Positions 14,634-37,895 of a stretch of DNA of 42,008 bases are shown piece after piece. The notes under the pieces were generated by a model, which saw only the letters and a list, made by a program, of their open reading frames with translations, did not search any database and was not told the DNA's origin. The translations under genes and the position numbers were made by a program. The stretch is from a virus, in the IMG/VR virus record IMGVR_UViG_3300045257_000064, positions 1-42,008 of that record, one strand, 5' to 3'. How positions within the stretch are numbered: the first letter of the stretch is position 1; each line of letters opens with the position of its first letter.

Positions 14634-15049
14634 AGCGACAACAGCAGCAGCGTCATGGCCTCATCCTGCCTCTGTTTGAGCGCAGGCCTGCCCAGCAATT
14701 CCTCGGCCACGCTGGTAAAATCCAATCGAGGAGGCTGGATGATGTTTTGCACGTCGGCGGGCATCTCAGCGGCCAGCGCATCAAGTAGTTTCGGTTCCTC
14801 AATGGCATCATCGAGCGGTTCTCCCTTGAATGCACGCGTAACCAGCGTCTTGCGGGATTCATCGTCCCTGCGTTTACGCCGGTCAATCTCTTCCTGACGC
14901 TTCTGGAAGGCATGGATGGCGCTCGGGTCATAGGCATTGACGCCACCCGATCCGGTATCCTGGTCCGGAATGATGATCGGACCAATGGCGCCAAATTGGA
15001 ATGCATTCGCTTGGAAAGCCCCAACCTGAAAAGCTGTTTGGCCGGCCAT
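14630..15049 (-). CDS. Hypothetical protein downstream of tailspike
   Basis: 139 aa. The N-terminus is a Phe/Gly/Ala repeat (FQVGAFQANAFQFGAIGP), typical of short phage virion proteins that begin with a phage-tail-like beta segment. The remainder is charged and helical with FQKRQEEIDRRKRRDDESRK. It starts one base after the tailspike stop codon (ATG 15049) and overlaps the next gene by four bases. Function unknown; a chaperone or minor structural role for the tailspike is possible. Confidence 0.6.
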   Translation of the reverse strand: MAGQTAFQVGAFQANAFQFGAIGPIIIPDQDTGSGGVNAYDPSAIHAFQKRQEEIDRRKRRDDESRKTLVTRAFKGEPLDDAIEEPKLLDALAAEMPADVQNIIQPPRLDFTSVAEELLGRPALKQRQDEAMTLLLLSL

Positions 15050-20767: not shown

Positions 20768-21082
20768 TCAGGCGCCGTCGCCGCAGGTGAAGTAAAGCGT
20801 GTTGGCGGCTGTGCCGATAACCGCAACACTGGTGGTGCCAGGGGGAACTGTGAATGTTTCAATAGTGCCTGGCAGGACTGGAATGCCATTAGCAGATGTA
20901 CCGGTCGGAATAACGACCGTAGTAGTCGAGATACCGAAGGCAATGAACGAGATAGCGTTAGCCGCCAGGCTCGATACCCTGACCTGATCGCCGTGCGTTG
21001 TGGGGAGCGTGGTAACAGCGCTTGTCGCGCTAACCGTTACGGCAACCGAGTTGCCCGGAGTAAATGGCGCAAGTGCTGGCAT
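20768..21082 (-). CDS. Small beta-rich structural protein
   Basis: 104 aa from ATG 21082 (a TTG four codons earlier is possible). Nearly all beta: PGNSVAVTVSATSAV, GISTTTVVIPTG and TSVAVIGTAANTLYFTCGDG. It resembles small phage proteins that present an Ig-like or beta-sandwich fold. It lies one base from the 109-aa partner and may form a complex with it. Function unknown. Confidence 0.55.
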   Translation of the reverse strand: MPALAPFTPGNSVAVTVSATSAVTTLPTTHGDQVRVSSLAANAISFIAFGISTTTVVIPTGTSANGIPVLPGTIETFTVPPGTTSVAVIGTAANTLYFTCGDGA

Positions 21083-21134
21083 CTGGAGCCCCAATCAGTG
21101 ACGGTAGGATAGTACCGCAAGATTTGGGCGAGCG

Positions 21135-21242
21135 CTAGTCAGCGTCTATCTTGCTCACAATCCATGACGTGACGATAATGGCCGCAAGGCAGAGCAGAAC
21201 AATGCAGCCGATGATGATGCCCCAAGTGATCAGCGTAGCCAC
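21135..21242 (-). CDS. 35-residue single-span membrane protein
   Basis: GTG 21242 has GGAGG five bases upstream, a strong site, and lies inside the end of the 73-aa gene (13-base overlap). The product is mostly one hydrophobic helix (LITWGIIIGCIVLLCLAAIIVTSWIV split by a Gly-Cys) with a short charged tail, SKIDAD. Length, start signal and operon position support expression; function is unknown. Confidence 0.6.
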   Translation of the reverse strand: MATLITWGIIIGCIVLLCLAAIIVTSWIVSKIDAD

Positions 21243-21451
21243 GCTCGCCTCCGCATCTCGCAGGTGAGGCAGTCCCAGCCCTCAATGTGCTTACCACCGC
21301 AAGGCCCTACGTATGAGTTTGGGCCGTAGCCTATGGGCTTGTCCAGTTCTGATGACTTAGTGATGCGGCGCCTCCGCACCTGAATCTCACAGGCCAGCCA
21401 GAGCACAATGTCTAAGGCAAGGATGGCGATAGGGATGTACCAGTGGTTCAT
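21230..21451 (-). CDS. Small membrane protein with Cys pair
   Basis: 73 aa. An N-terminal helix (IPIAILALDIVLWLACEI) spans the membrane, followed by a basic patch (QVRRRRITK) and a C-terminal segment with CGG and CLTCEMRRRAW that could bind metal. It overlaps the upstream gene by four bases. No named family recognised. Confidence 0.6.
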   Translation of the reverse strand: MNHWYIPIAILALDIVLWLACEIQVRRRRITKSSELDKPIGYGPNSYVGPCGGKHIEGWDCLTCEMRRRAWLR

Positions 21452-21672
21452 TCGTTGCTCTCCACTCCAAGGCTAGACAATTCATCCACGACTTTTGCAC
21501 TTGCTGCTCGGACGTGAGTTAGCGCCGACTGGTTGTCGATATTGATGTAGTTCCCATCAATAACCAAGTTCGCATCGAACGCCGGGTATCTGCAAAGCGC
21601 ATTTTCCATCGCGTTGATTTCCCTCAGACGCTTTCGAAGCGGCCCGATCTTTTCTAGGTCTGACAGCTTCAT
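21448..21672 (-). CDS. Small hypothetical protein
   Basis: 74 aa with helices at each end (LSDLEKIGPLRKRLREINAMEN) and a short beta segment (NLVIDGNYINIDNQ). It is the middle member of a chain of four minus-strand genes joined by four-base overlaps. Function unknown. Confidence 0.6.
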   Translation of the reverse strand: MKLSDLEKIGPLRKRLREINAMENALCRYPAFDANLVIDGNYINIDNQSALTHVRAASAKVVDELSSLGVESNE

Positions 21673-22007
21673 TTCCCCTCCTTCATCGCAGAACGACGCT
21701 TGCGCATGTAGTCTCGGTTGTAGGCAGCTTTGTCGAAGCCGTTACGAGGACGGCCAAGTTTTGATACCGAGATTTTGCCAGCCGCGCTCTCGGCAAGCGG
21801 TTTGTCTGAAACTGTTATAGGATGCTGGCGCTCATCCTTGGATTGAAGTTGCCGGCGATATCGCTTTAAATCAGATGAAGAGCGCGCAACGTTCGCATTT
21901 CCGCCTCCATAGCTAGTTGGTGAACTTTTGAATGGCATCCAGCCCGAAGGCTTCTTGGGACAATCCCACCCGACGTGAATGGCTGAACCGCAGAACTGGC
22001 ATGTCAT
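21669..22007 (-). CDS. Small zinc-ribbon/basic protein
   Basis: 112 aa. Begins MTCQFCGSAIHVGWDCP, with CxxC plus a later Cys: a probable zinc-binding head. Then come a basic linker and a C-terminal RNGFDKAAYNRDYMRKRRSA segment that resembles DNA-contacting tails in other phage proteins. It has no Shine-Dalgarno before ATG 22007, and its predicted promoter places the transcript start at the ATG. It may be a DNA-binding regulator, but that is inference. Confidence 0.55.
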   Translation of the reverse strand: MTCQFCGSAIHVGWDCPKKPSGWMPFKSSPTSYGGGNANVARSSSDLKRYRRQLQSKDERQHPITVSDKPLAESAAGKISVSKLGRPRNGFDKAAYNRDYMRKRRSAMKEGK

Positions 22008-22010
22008 AGA

Positions 22011-22041
22011 CGTAGTTTAAACTACGGTAGTTTTTAGTCAA
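22011..22041 (-). promoter_or_regulatory. Operator-like alternating 7-mers with overlapping promoter
   Basis: The 7-mer GTAGTTT appears at 22012-22018, inverted at 22019-22025 and again at 22027-22033; the first two make a perfect 16-base palindrome (22011-22026). On the minus strand a TTGACT box (22041-22036) lies just past the terL stop, and a TAAACT box follows 16 bases later (22019-22014), overlapping the repeats. A repressor bound here would block this promoter. The 7-mer series was not seen elsewhere in the window. Confidence 0.55.
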
Positions 22042-22044
22042 GCG

Positions 22045-23394
22045 TTAGATGCGGCTGCTCGCCGATCTTTGCGTTGACCATGCGTCGTTGAGTGTCAACC
22101 GATTGCCCGGCCCAACCTCAAGGTGCCGTTCCTGCTGCTCTTGAGGAGCGGGTGCTGACAAGCCCTGCATGACCTGCGCGCCATAGGCAAAGCCATCGCC
22201 GGGATGGCTGGCCCAATTGTGCAGCGGCTCGCGGCTGAACTCCTGCGTATCCTCGTTGAACTCGAACTCCCATGCCTCCAGGCCATCAATACCGTCAGAG
22301 CACTGATCCTCGCTGATTTCGCATGAGTTGATCACCAACCTGGCTGCGCTGATTTGATCACTCTTCCGGCTCATCGGCACAATGCCAACCTTGGCCATTG
22401 TGTAGTGGTGAATGAAGCGCTCGACGGTGCTATGCTTGCTTTGAAAGGTCTTGGCCCTGGCGTCATGTGGCAACCACACCTTGCCCAGTTTATCCCGCGG
22501 AACCCCTAGGGTTTCCATATACGCATCAAGCTCTATGCACCAGTCGTCTGCGTCGAGCCCGCTGGCGCCTTTGTAGCCAACGATAGAGTAACCACCCACC
22601 TTCCTCTGCCAGAACCACCAGCAGGCGGTGTCGTGAAAACCAATGTCGCTGCTGATCTCCAGCGGCGCACCGAATAAGTCGAAGGGCACGCCAGTATGGA
22701 TGCGTTCTTCCCTCCTTGCCTTGTTGACCCACTTGCCGAGGATAGAGCCCTTGGTGAAGCCGTACGCACCCTCCCATACGTGCTCTGCCTTGTCTTGGTC
22801 CTCGCGGAAGTCATCCTCCATTTCCCTTAGCAACTCCTTGGGAAACCATGGATTGTCGCGCCAGTTCACCTCTACACATATGGCGTTGTCGCGCTTCTGC
22901 CGGCGGAAGAACACGTCCACCGGATCAGTCTTGAACCTTGGGTTCCAGCTGAACCATATCTCGCTGCCTTCCTTACGGATCGTGGGACGGAGCAGATCAA
23001 GGCTATGCTGGCTCAAGCTCTGCGCTTCCTCGACCCAGGCGATGTCAACACCCTCAAGCGACTTGATGTTGTCGGCGTTGTAGCTCTGCATACCCTTGAA
23101 GATAATGAGCGAGCCGTTCTTGCCGCGTATCTCGTTATCGAGTGGGTCGAACTCACTGCTGAGACCGAACTTGTCGATCTTGTCTACGAGCAGCTGCCGT
23201 ACAGAATCCCTGATACTGTTCTGGACCTCTCGGATGCACACCACCCGAGTTGGTTCGCGAAAGCATCGGATGATGATCTGCTCGGCAAAGAAATGTGACT
23301 TGGCACCACCTCGCCCACCGTGTGCGCCCTTGAAGCGCATGGGGCCTAGGAGTGGCTTGAACTTGCGAGGGACCTCAACCCTTAAGGTAGCCAC
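22045..23394 (-). CDS. terL: Terminase large subunit (PBSX-type)
   Basis: 449 aa from GTG 23394 (a TTG two codons earlier is also open). Motifs are clear: the P-loop variant GGRGGAKS at residues 26-33, Walker B and catalytic Glu in VDIAWVEEA at about 116-124, and a coupling motif WFSWNP. In the C-terminal nuclease half, SSDIGFHDTACWW and LPHDARAKTF provide acidic residues. TerL packages DNA through the portal using ATP and cuts concatemers. Its start overlaps the end of the HNH gene by 13 bases. Confidence 0.9.
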   Translation of the reverse strand: MATLRVEVPRKFKPLLGPMRFKGAHGGRGGAKSHFFAEQIIIRCFREPTRVVCIREVQNSIRDSVRQLLVDKIDKFGLSSEFDPLDNEIRGKNGSLIIFKGMQSYNADNIKSLEGVDIAWVEEAQSLSQHSLDLLRPTIRKEGSEIWFSWNPRFKTDPVDVFFRRQKRDNAICVEVNWRDNPWFPKELLREMEDDFREDQDKAEHVWEGAYGFTKGSILGKWVNKARREERIHTGVPFDLFGAPLEISSDIGFHDTACWWFWQRKVGGYSIVGYKGASGLDADDWCIELDAYMETLGVPRDKLGKVWLPHDARAKTFQSKHSTVERFIHHYTMAKVGIVPMSRKSDQISAARLVINSCEISEDQCSDGIDGLEAWEFEFNEDTQEFSREPLHNWASHPGDGFAYGAQVMQGLSAPAPQEQQERHLEVGPGNRLTLNDAWSTQRSASSRI

Positions 23395-23855
23395 GCCCAA
23401 CTCTTCCGCGTTCTAACATTGGCTATTGCCTGCGAACTTACGTGGAAACTCCTTGCGAGTTCTGCATTCGAAAGAATTGAGGCCCTAATGGCCGCCACTT
23501 CGTAGTCCTTCAATACGGACGCTGGATTAAGATTGCCGCGCCGAATCGTACCGTGTCGTATCTTGTCTCTCTGGTTTTCTACAGGCAAAGCCCAACGAAT
23601 GTGTTTTTTAGCCACGCATTTCCTGTTTCCGCAGGAATGTGCGGCATCTGTATGCGCTGCGGTGGGAGGGCGCCCATTAACAGCTTCACATATGAATGTG
23701 TGGGCGTGCATTGTAACCTCGCCAACCCTAAGCGAGCCGTATCCACTCGATGTAACCCCGAATGGCCATTCGACGCACGCATCAGTGTCTGGAGCAGACA
23801 GGTGCTGCAGAAGCCACGCGAGCGCTTCACCTCTTTTAGCTCTTCGGGTCGACAA
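23382..23855 (-). CDS. HNH endonuclease between terS and terL
   Basis: About 157 aa if TTG 23855 is used; the open frame extends back to 23957 inside terS, so the start is uncertain. Motifs: ACVEWPFG, GYGSLRVGEVTMHAHTFIC, then AHSCGNRKCVAKKHIRWAL, a zinc-assisted HNH core, and a C-terminal helix-turn-helix (LSNAELARSFHVSSQAIANV). This is the layout of the 7623-8141 enzyme, so the two may share an origin. It overlaps both terminase genes at its ends. Confidence 0.8.
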   Translation of the reverse strand: MSTRRAKRGEALAWLLQHLSAPDTDACVEWPFGVTSSGYGSLRVGEVTMHAHTFICEAVNGRPPTAAHTDAAHSCGNRKCVAKKHIRWALPVENQRDKIRHGTIRRGNLNPASVLKDYEVAAIRASILSNAELARSFHVSSQAIANVRTRKSWAWLP

Positions 23856-24087
23856 TGATCTGCTCGACGCGATGAATGAGCGGATTGTCGGGATCGCCTG
23901 AAATGGTTGTCGATGCCAAATCAGGCATGATCTTACGTAGCAATCCCAAGCCTGCACTGACCTGTGTGCCGCTCATCTCACGCTTACCCTCCGCATGTTC
24001 TATTAGTGCGTTGAGGATATTGCTGTTTTGGATTTTAACCCGGTGCTCTGCTGACATCGAGAACTTGGGGCCGGTCTTGGCTGCCAT
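23836..24087 (-). CDS. terS: Terminase small subunit
   Basis: 83 aa. Basic N-terminus (AAKTGPKF), then a helix-rich core (ILNALIEHAEGKREMSGTQVSAGLGLLRKI split across two helices) and a C-terminal VEQIIVDP tail. I recognise this from small-terminase-like proteins of alphaproteobacterial phages, in which the core helices bind packaging-site DNA and the tail contacts TerL. The ATG overlaps the upstream stop by one base. Its end overlaps the HNH gene. Confidence 0.7.
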   Translation of the reverse strand: MAAKTGPKFSMSAEHRVKIQNSNILNALIEHAEGKREMSGTQVSAGLGLLRKIMPDLASTTISGDPDNPLIHRVEQIIVDPKS

Positions 24088-31854: not shown

Positions 31855-31967
31855 CCGACCAATCCCCCACCCAATGCAGGCAACACGCTGCAGCACACCG
31901 CGAGAACGGCAATAAACCGAGACACAACAGCCCAATCAGAGCCGGTGAAGAAGGCGTTGAGGGTCAT
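31851..31967 (-). CDS. 38-residue membrane peptide
   Basis: A 39-codon frame fills the space between the 203-aa and 99-aa genes and is joined to both by ATGA overlaps. The product has a polar N-terminus (TLNAFFTGSDW) and a hydrophobic helix (VVSRFIAVLAVCCSVLPALG). Coupling on both sides is good evidence of translation. No family known. Confidence 0.6.
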   Translation of the reverse strand: MTLNAFFTGSDWAVVSRFIAVLAVCCSVLPALGGGLVG

Positions 31968-32575
31968 GCTGTCTCCGTCACCGGAAGGTCGAGAAGCGCG
32001 TTAAGTTTCTTGGTCGGTAGGACCGGAAGCGGAACGGGCGCGGGATCGAACTTGATCGCGAAGGGCGCGACCTCGGGCCAAATCTCGATGAGCCGGTTGA
32101 CCGTTGACGCGCTGTTGATGGCGGCGATTGTCTGGCGCTCAGCGTCGTCAATCTGTTTGGTTAGGTCTGCCGACCGTTCCTTGAGAGCGCGATAGGTGAC
32201 GGATAGATGGTCGGTGACTTCGTAAACCTTGGCGCATCCTCGCGAATGCGAGTGGATTACCCGACGCGATAAGCCCTCAATCGACTTGGCCAGCATCTTT
32301 GCTTGAGAGCCGTATTCTGCGCCTGAAAACGACAAGGCGTGGTAGGATCGTCCGTCGCCAAACTGGACGCCGATGGTCTCCACTTCGGGCAGCCAGCCCT
32401 TCGGGAGGTTCGCCATCTTACGACGGTCGCCGAGTTGGTAAATGTCCTCGTAGACAGCTTTAGCGAACGCGGCGCGCTCAGCGACTAAAGCGGCGACCGC
32501 TTCGGCAAAGCGATGCTGAAGCACGGCCCGTACGATTTTCTCTCGCGAGTAATTTGTAAGCTTCCCCATCTTCAT
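31964..32575 (-). CDS. Early protein, possibly Nmad5-like
   Basis: 203 aa, start among several near ATGs (32575 used; 32569 has a GGGGA site and is also possible). The N-terminus KLTNYSREKIVRAVLQHRF and later MANLPKGWLPEVETIGVQFG recall the Nmad5 family, predicted to be associated with nucleotide modification in phages. That assignment is tentative. The C-terminal half is helical. It is the first gene after the minus-strand promoter at 32.62 kb. Confidence 0.45.
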   Translation of the reverse strand: MKMGKLTNYSREKIVRAVLQHRFAEAVAALVAERAAFAKAVYEDIYQLGDRRKMANLPKGWLPEVETIGVQFGDGRSYHALSFSGAEYGSQAKMLAKSIEGLSRRVIHSHSRGCAKVYEVTDHLSVTYRALKERSADLTKQIDDAERQTIAAINSASTVNRLIEIWPEVAPFAIKFDPAPVPLPVLPTKKLNALLDLPVTETA

Positions 32576-32614
32576 CCCCACGTTTGCCCGGCTATGCCTT
32601 GGCGGTATTGCTGA

Positions 32615-35215: not shown

Positions 35216-35409
35216 TCCACCAACTCCTTGACGAGCACCACTCGATGCCCCGGCTCAAGCATTCCCATCCATTGCAGGTTTGATTCTGCCTCGTGAATGG
35301 TGAGGAGGGATTTACCCGTGGCTTCGAGTTCCTCGATTTGTGTGAACTGAGGCTTAAGCGAGTAAGGCTTAAGCTGTTGGTCGTTGGCGGTTTTGATGAG
35401 GAACCTCAT
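35212..35409 (-). CDS. Small early protein
   Basis: 65 aa. LIKTANDQQLKPYSLKPQFT, then LLTIHEAESNLQWMGMLEPG and HRVVLVKELVE. Overlaps both neighbours by four bases. No function recognised. Confidence 0.55.
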   Translation of the reverse strand: MRFLIKTANDQQLKPYSLKPQFTQIEELEATGKSLLTIHEAESNLQWMGMLEPGHRVVLVKELVE

Positions 35410-35561
35410 TTCGTCACCTTGGCGGCTCGCTTCAGACCGGCGTCGATCTGCTCACGAATCCAGTCGGATGGCGTCATGCGCGGCTGCTTGGCCGCTTCCT
35501 TGCGGATTTTGGCCTCCGTTCTTTCATCCACCCGAACGCTAATCTTAGTATCCAGCGCCAT
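35406..35561 (-). CDS. Ribbon-helix-helix regulator (51 aa)
   Basis: A 52-codon frame, ATG 35561, with AAGGA ten bases upstream. The sequence TKISVRVDERTEAKIRKEA then MTPSDWIREQIDAGLKR is a textbook ribbon-helix-helix: a short strand with alternating polar residues that enters the DNA groove, and two helices. Dimers bind inverted or direct repeats. It is the first gene of the leftward operon and likely controls the divergent promoters beside it or the operator at 22.0 kb. Confidence 0.8.
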   Translation of the reverse strand: MALDTKISVRVDERTEAKIRKEAAKQPRMTPSDWIREQIDAGLKRAAKVTK

Positions 35562-37322: not shown

Positions 37323-37895
37323 ATGAACCCCTTCTACGAAGACCACGATAGTCGCAGGATTCTGCGTATAGAGATCGCTGTAAGTTCGATCCTAGAGAAA
37401 CTGCGCCTCATCATGGGAGGGGAATCCATCATCATCAACCAGGAGCTACGTTCCGTGGCCACTCTCGCAGACGTAAAGACCAAACTGGACGCCCAGACGG
37501 CGCTCCTTTCCGACCTTGCCGCTCGCATCATCGCCAATCAGGATGACCCGGCAGCCCTCCAGGCCATCGCCGATGAGATCGATCAGCACAATGACACCAT
37601 TGGCAAGCTCGATACCTCGACGCCGATCGTCGTTCCGCCCACGACTGCGCCGGTCGTTACCTCGATCGCTCCGAACAATGGACCGATTGCCGGCGGCATC
37701 ATGGTCACCCTCACCGGTACTGGCTTCACTGGCGCAACTGGTGTTACCTTCGGCGGTGTTGCTGCAACCACGTTCAGCGTCACCAATGACACCACGATCA
37801 GCGCCGAGACGCCGGCTACTGCGGCCAGCGATGTTCCTGTGGTCGTCACCACGCCGAACGGCGCAAGTTCTCCGGTGACATTCACGTTCGACTAA
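37323..37895 (+). CDS. IPT/TIG-domain protein
   Basis: 190 aa. Residues 1-100 are coiled coil (VKTKLDAQTALLSDLAARI, DDPAALQAIADEIDQHND). Residues 108-190 are an IPT/TIG Ig-like domain: VVTSIAPNNGPIAGGIMVTL, TGTGFTGATGVTFGG and VVVTTPNGASSPVTFTF. Such domains often decorate phage capsids or tails and bind carbohydrates or cells. It is the last gene of the rightward operon. A head-fibre or decoration role is inference. Confidence 0.7.
   Translation: MNPFYEDHDSRRILRIEIAVSSILEKLRLIMGGESIIINQELRSVATLADVKTKLDAQTALLSDLAARIIANQDDPAALQAIADEIDQHNDTIGKLDTSTPIVVPPTTAPVVTSIAPNNGPIAGGIMVTLTGTGFTGATGVTFGGVAATTFSVTNDTTISAETPATAASDVPVVVTTPNGASSPVTFTFD

Follow-up and report, generated by a model that had tools for sequence, protein, structure and literature searches.

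Genes between terL and the head gene

The window, meaning the whole stretch of DNA analysed here, is the 42,008-base linear virus record IMGVR_UViG_3300045257_000064. On its minus strand the large terminase subunit gene, terL, ends at 22045 and the next gene begins with an ATG at 22007, which confirms the position between these two genes that a sequence-only reading had given to the site. The 37-nt gap is followed by four small genes and a head gene:

22045-23400, minus strand: terL, large terminase subunit (Pfam Terminase_3, 2.8e-36; PHROG terminase large subunit, 1.4e-56); its stop bounds the element upstream
21083-22044, minus strand: 962-nt extra stretch, missing between terL and the head gene in three relatives (L003, L015 and L021)
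21669-22007, minus strand: cassette gene 1, 112 aa, with an N-terminal CCHC zinc knuckle (C3-C6-H11-C16) and a predicted basic C-terminal helix
21448-21672, minus strand: cassette gene 2, 74 aa, with a strong Shine-Dalgarno (SD) sequence and a start overlapping the previous stop
21230-21451, minus strand: cassette gene 3, 73 aa, with a start overlapping the previous stop and a hydrophobic N-terminus 81% identical to a protein of the contig L082 discussed below
21135-21242, minus strand: cassette gene 4, 35 aa, with a GTG start, one hydrophobic segment and a homologue in L082
20774-21082, minus strand: head gene of about 102 aa, with a homologue directly after terL in L003, L015 and L021 (37-46% identity)

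The cassette genes overlap by at least 4 nt, as within one operon. G+C is about 50-53% in the cassette's first half and 55-60% on the terL side, a small difference. The four genes are a moron-like accessory cassette with a promoter-like sequence at its head. Moron (accessory) genes commonly carry a promoter and a terminator of their own (PMC2147016; PMC7067206). Like such morons, the cassette adds genes at a junction of two conserved phage genes, is absent between the same neighbors in relatives, and has a promoter-like sequence of its own. Unlike them, it comprises four genes and is followed by no terminator-like site before the head gene. Thus, it is not a textbook moron with both promoter and terminator. 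No integrase was recognized among the genes scanned. An HNH endonuclease gene (23382-23957, minus strand) lies directly upstream of terL, in a stretch of lower G+C, and overlaps the called terL start.

The 112-aa product of the first gene had been described as a zinc ribbon, a label that we correct, by its CX2CX4HX4C spacing (C3, C6, H11, C16), to a CCHC zinc knuckle. Its best matches in the PDB are mostly zinc knuckles and are weak (E-value of 0.03 or more). A Pfam search with the HMMER filters on returned zero matches up to an E-value of 10, and thus the knuckle label is one of residue spacing only. The spacing is of the retroviral nucleocapsid type, here in a small phage protein; a search of papers for zinc knuckles in phages found nothing. 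Single-sequence structure prediction gave, at low confidence, the basic C-terminal helix with the remainder mostly disordered. No convincing relatives were found in IMG/VR for the 112-aa or the 74-aa protein, nor for the 112-aa protein in GTDB genomes, phage records or plasmids.

Repeat array and promoter-like boxes in the gap

Read on the minus strand, the gap is CGC TTGACT AAAAACTACCGTAGTT TAAACT ACGTCT, followed by the ATG at 22007. It contains the following features:

22012-22018, plus strand: 7-mer copy 1, GTAGTTT, exact
22019-22025, minus strand: 7-mer copy 2, inverted (AAACTAC on the plus strand), exact
22027-22033, plus strand: 7-mer copy 3, GTAGTTT, exact, within the promoter spacer
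22011-22026, no strand: perfect palindrome of 16 nt, CGTAGTTTAAACTACG, overlying the -10 box and formed by copies 1 and 2
22036-22041, minus strand: -35-like box TTGACT, a 5/6 promoter-motif match
22014-22019, minus strand: -10-like box TAAACT, a 4/6 promoter-motif match, after a spacer of 16 nt
22007, minus strand: predicted leaderless transcription start at the A of the ATG, from the -10 spacing and the weakest anti-SD pairing

The three alternating copies of GTAGTTT/AAACTAC reported from the first reading are thus present and exact. The array, GTAGTTT-AAACTAC-G-GTAGTTT, overlies the spacer and the -10 box, with copies 1 and 2 directly abutting (0 bp) and a gap of 1 bp before copy 3. Elsewhere in the 42 kb there is one further exact 7-mer, at 14785. 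One such triple occurs in the window, while dinucleotide shuffles of the window produced 2 triples per 100. Palindromes of the 16-nt size arise about once per dinucleotide-shuffled window, and the palindrome by itself is unremarkable for 42 kb. When the 37-nt gap itself was shuffled, the rate was 5e-6 for the triple and 5e-4 for a palindrome whose arms reach at least 8. The significance of the array comes from the third copy and the location, not from the palindrome alone.

The two boxes together match at 9 of 12 positions. Across 21000-23500, chance would give about 1.5 promoter-like matches; TTGACT-N16-TAAACT is the sole one there, and the score alone is no better than chance over this 2.5-kb region. 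At related loci, 0.9% of random 80-nt stretches in the sense orientation contained a strict promoter match; after terL, such a match was found at 2/159 terL loci, which is about the background rate. We therefore rejected a common terL-linked promoter across the family; the putative promoter goes with the cassette, not with terL.

Six bases separate the -10 box from the A of the ATG, so that the expected transcript start falls on the ATG. The pairing of the sequence upstream of this ATG with the anti-Shine-Dalgarno tail of 16S rRNA (-1.0 kcal/mol) is the weakest among 40 genes checked, and a leaderless start would fit at 22007. Leaderless transcripts are defined as those that begin about 0-9 nt from the start codon, and in Alphaproteobacteria such mRNAs are fairly common, making up 7% in Methylorubrum (PMC9320726). 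The prophage relatives of terL are mostly from Alpha- and Betaproteobacteria; thus, the host probably belongs to one of these two classes. Of the earlier proposal of an internal promoter with a leaderless start under the repeats, the overlap of the boxes by the array, the lack of a Shine-Dalgarno sequence and an expected start on or next to the ATG stand, while promoter activity and the start site itself are predictions.

Conservation of the repeats was not seen in the records searched. No exact copy of the operator was found in IMG/VR, and none within two mismatches in 13 related records. The check suggested earlier, a search of relatives for the palindrome, thus gave no match, but none of the relatives searched for the 7-mers carries the window's version of the cassette. 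A literature search for the literal sequence AGTTTAAACT as a known operator gave no relevant match. Operators of the 434 type are 14-bp 4-6-4 dyads, e.g., ACAA-N6-TTGT. GTAG-N6-CTAC in the window is likewise a 14-bp 4-6-4 dyad, here overlying promoter-like boxes, but it differs in sequence, consists of one dyad and a lone half-site, and has no cognate helix-turn-helix repressor identified.

A second cassette on contig L082

A search with the 73-aa protein found a single contig, L082 (IMG/VR 3300014969_000005), and further copies of the 35-73-aa membrane protein were found on that contig only. The terL of L082 is of a different kind (Terminase_6N), and its portal is of the SU10 type. Between them are genes for 67-aa, 80-aa, 65-aa and 35-aa proteins and small membrane proteins. 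Its 35-aa protein is 81% identical over 27 residues to the 73-aa protein of the window, and the small membrane proteins are 56% identical to the window's 35-aa protein. Relative to its L082 homologue, the 73-aa protein (21230-21451, minus strand) is longer by about 40 residues, which include an HxxGWDC-like motif similar to the knuckle gene, and TGCGGAGGCG direct repeats flank this extra DNA.

In L082 a TTGACA lies 11-12 nt after the terL stop and is followed by an AT-rich -10 region, the spacing being ambiguous (15, 17 or 19 nt). Between this promoter-like sequence and the ATG is an inverted repeat, ATTGCGC-N15-GCGCAAT (L082:3339-3367), that spans the leader and the ATG. Its predicted hairpin (-12.6 kcal/mol) has the start codon in a stem. 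The first gene encodes a small, possibly helix-turn-helix protein; this assignment is weak, and the single-sequence structure is of low confidence.

The cassettes of the window and L082 share position, gene set and a promoter-like head, and differ in their first gene and in the sequence of the repeat. A rule cannot be established from two cases.

A candidate regulated promoter and its alternatives

The reading that we favor, at about an even chance, is that the site serves as promoter and operator for an inserted moron-like cassette, the promoter being repressible, probably leaderless, and covered by a regulator-bound array. We infer promoter activity, start site, binding, repression and the kind of binder as follows. 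Transcription from a sigma-70-type promoter would begin on the ATG at 22007 or no more than a base or two away, leaving the first gene leaderless. A dimeric or oligomeric DNA-binding protein, from host or phage, would occupy the alternating 7-mers and cover the spacer and the -10 box, holding the promoter off until release. With the GTAG-N6-CTAC dyad over the -10 box and the third copy in the spacer, the bound protein would block polymerase. Read-through from terL may still supply the cassette late. On the best reading, the promoter would allow the accessory cassette to be expressed independently of the late operon, and its position at the head of a 962-bp cassette absent from terL relatives would explain why an internal promoter exists here at all. 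The coincidence of the rare triple (5e-6) and a promoter match in the same 37-nt gap, linked to the cassette, counts for this reading, as do the direct succession of terL and head gene in L003, L015 and L021, the L082 cassette behind its own promoter-like head, the weakest anti-SD pairing and the operon-like gene overlaps. Counting against it are the promoter score, which alone does not exceed chance over 2.5 kb, the lack of the repeats in the relatives found, the lack of a terminator, and the L082 repeat, which differs in kind and in place (over the ATG). The elements themselves, i.e., a palindromic operator, a sigma-70 promoter and a leaderless start, are ordinary. If the reading is right, 37 bp are enough for an accessory cassette inserted in a late operon to retain a regulated, leaderless promoter of its own, and the terL/portal interval is marked as a slot in which to look for such cassettes.

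The gap may also be a chance product, an AT-rich insertion junction with a palindrome and promoter-like boxes, in which case the cassette would be expressed by read-through from terL only. We consider this unlikely, but it has a real claim: a 42-kb window should contain about one perfect 16-nt palindrome by chance, the promoter match over 2.5 kb is at the chance level, and the repeats are not conserved. Chance would, however, have to place the triple repeat and the boxes in one 37-nt gap, leave the ATG at 22007 with no Shine-Dalgarno sequence for translation of a read-through transcript, and also give the L082 cassette its promoter-like head.

A more specific version of repression has the 51-aa ribbon-helix-helix (RHH) protein encoded at 35406-35561, which the sequence-only reading had named as a possible regulator, binding each 7-mer as a dimer, in the manner of omega/ParB of pSM19035, to repress the cassette. 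The RHH identity is plausible (Pfam NikA-like, 0.01; PHROG repressor, 0.0022). Omega, itself an RHH protein, has operators made of 7-bp heptads in direct and inverted order, and its dimers bind these repeats in either orientation (PMC9499535). The window likewise has 7-bp units in both orders, but its heptad differs, there are only three copies, and one extra base separates copies 2 and 3. Furthermore, the 7-mer is absent upstream of the RHH gene, no second exact cluster was found, and the RHH protein and the cassette were not found together elsewhere. Control by this protein is therefore unsupported, and we regard it as improbable.

The array might instead act as RNA. The central 7-mer could pair with either neighbor, so that alternative hairpins in a read-through transcript would control translation, or the plus-strand copy could be a weak terminator. 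A hairpin CGUAGU-UUAA-ACUACG is predicted at -5.8 kcal/mol, a terminator-like call was made on the plus strand, and L082 has its hairpin over the ATG. The stability of the window's hairpin is not beyond that of shuffled sequences (z of -1.4 alone and -0.4 in context), no U-tract directly follows the stem, and no plus-strand genes are evident there. We give an RNA device only a slim chance. The terminator reading of the palindrome was rejected, the stem being weak and lacking a U-tract.

A broader scheme would have unrelated phages share an exchangeable terL/portal cassette slot, in which the first gene and the operator change together and each version has its own regulator and a leaderless or hairpin-controlled start, the regulator here being the CCHC knuckle protein. 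We rate this a long shot. About as improbable is autoregulation by the 112-aa protein, as the sequence-only reading had proposed: its gene heads the cassette, it may end in a basic helix (a low-confidence prediction), and the first gene of L082 may encode a helix-turn-helix protein, but CCHC knuckles usually bind single-stranded nucleic acid, which makes a repressor of a duplex operator less likely, the rest of the protein is predicted at low confidence to be mostly disordered, and the L082 assignment is itself weak.

Two other genes were noted in the window. A protein with an Nmad5 domain (Pfam, 6.8e-27), from a nucleotide-modification-associated family, is encoded at 31964-32581 on the minus strand. 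An ORF with an IPT/TIG domain (Pfam, 9.8e-15) at 37323-37895 is on the plus strand of a mostly minus-strand genome.
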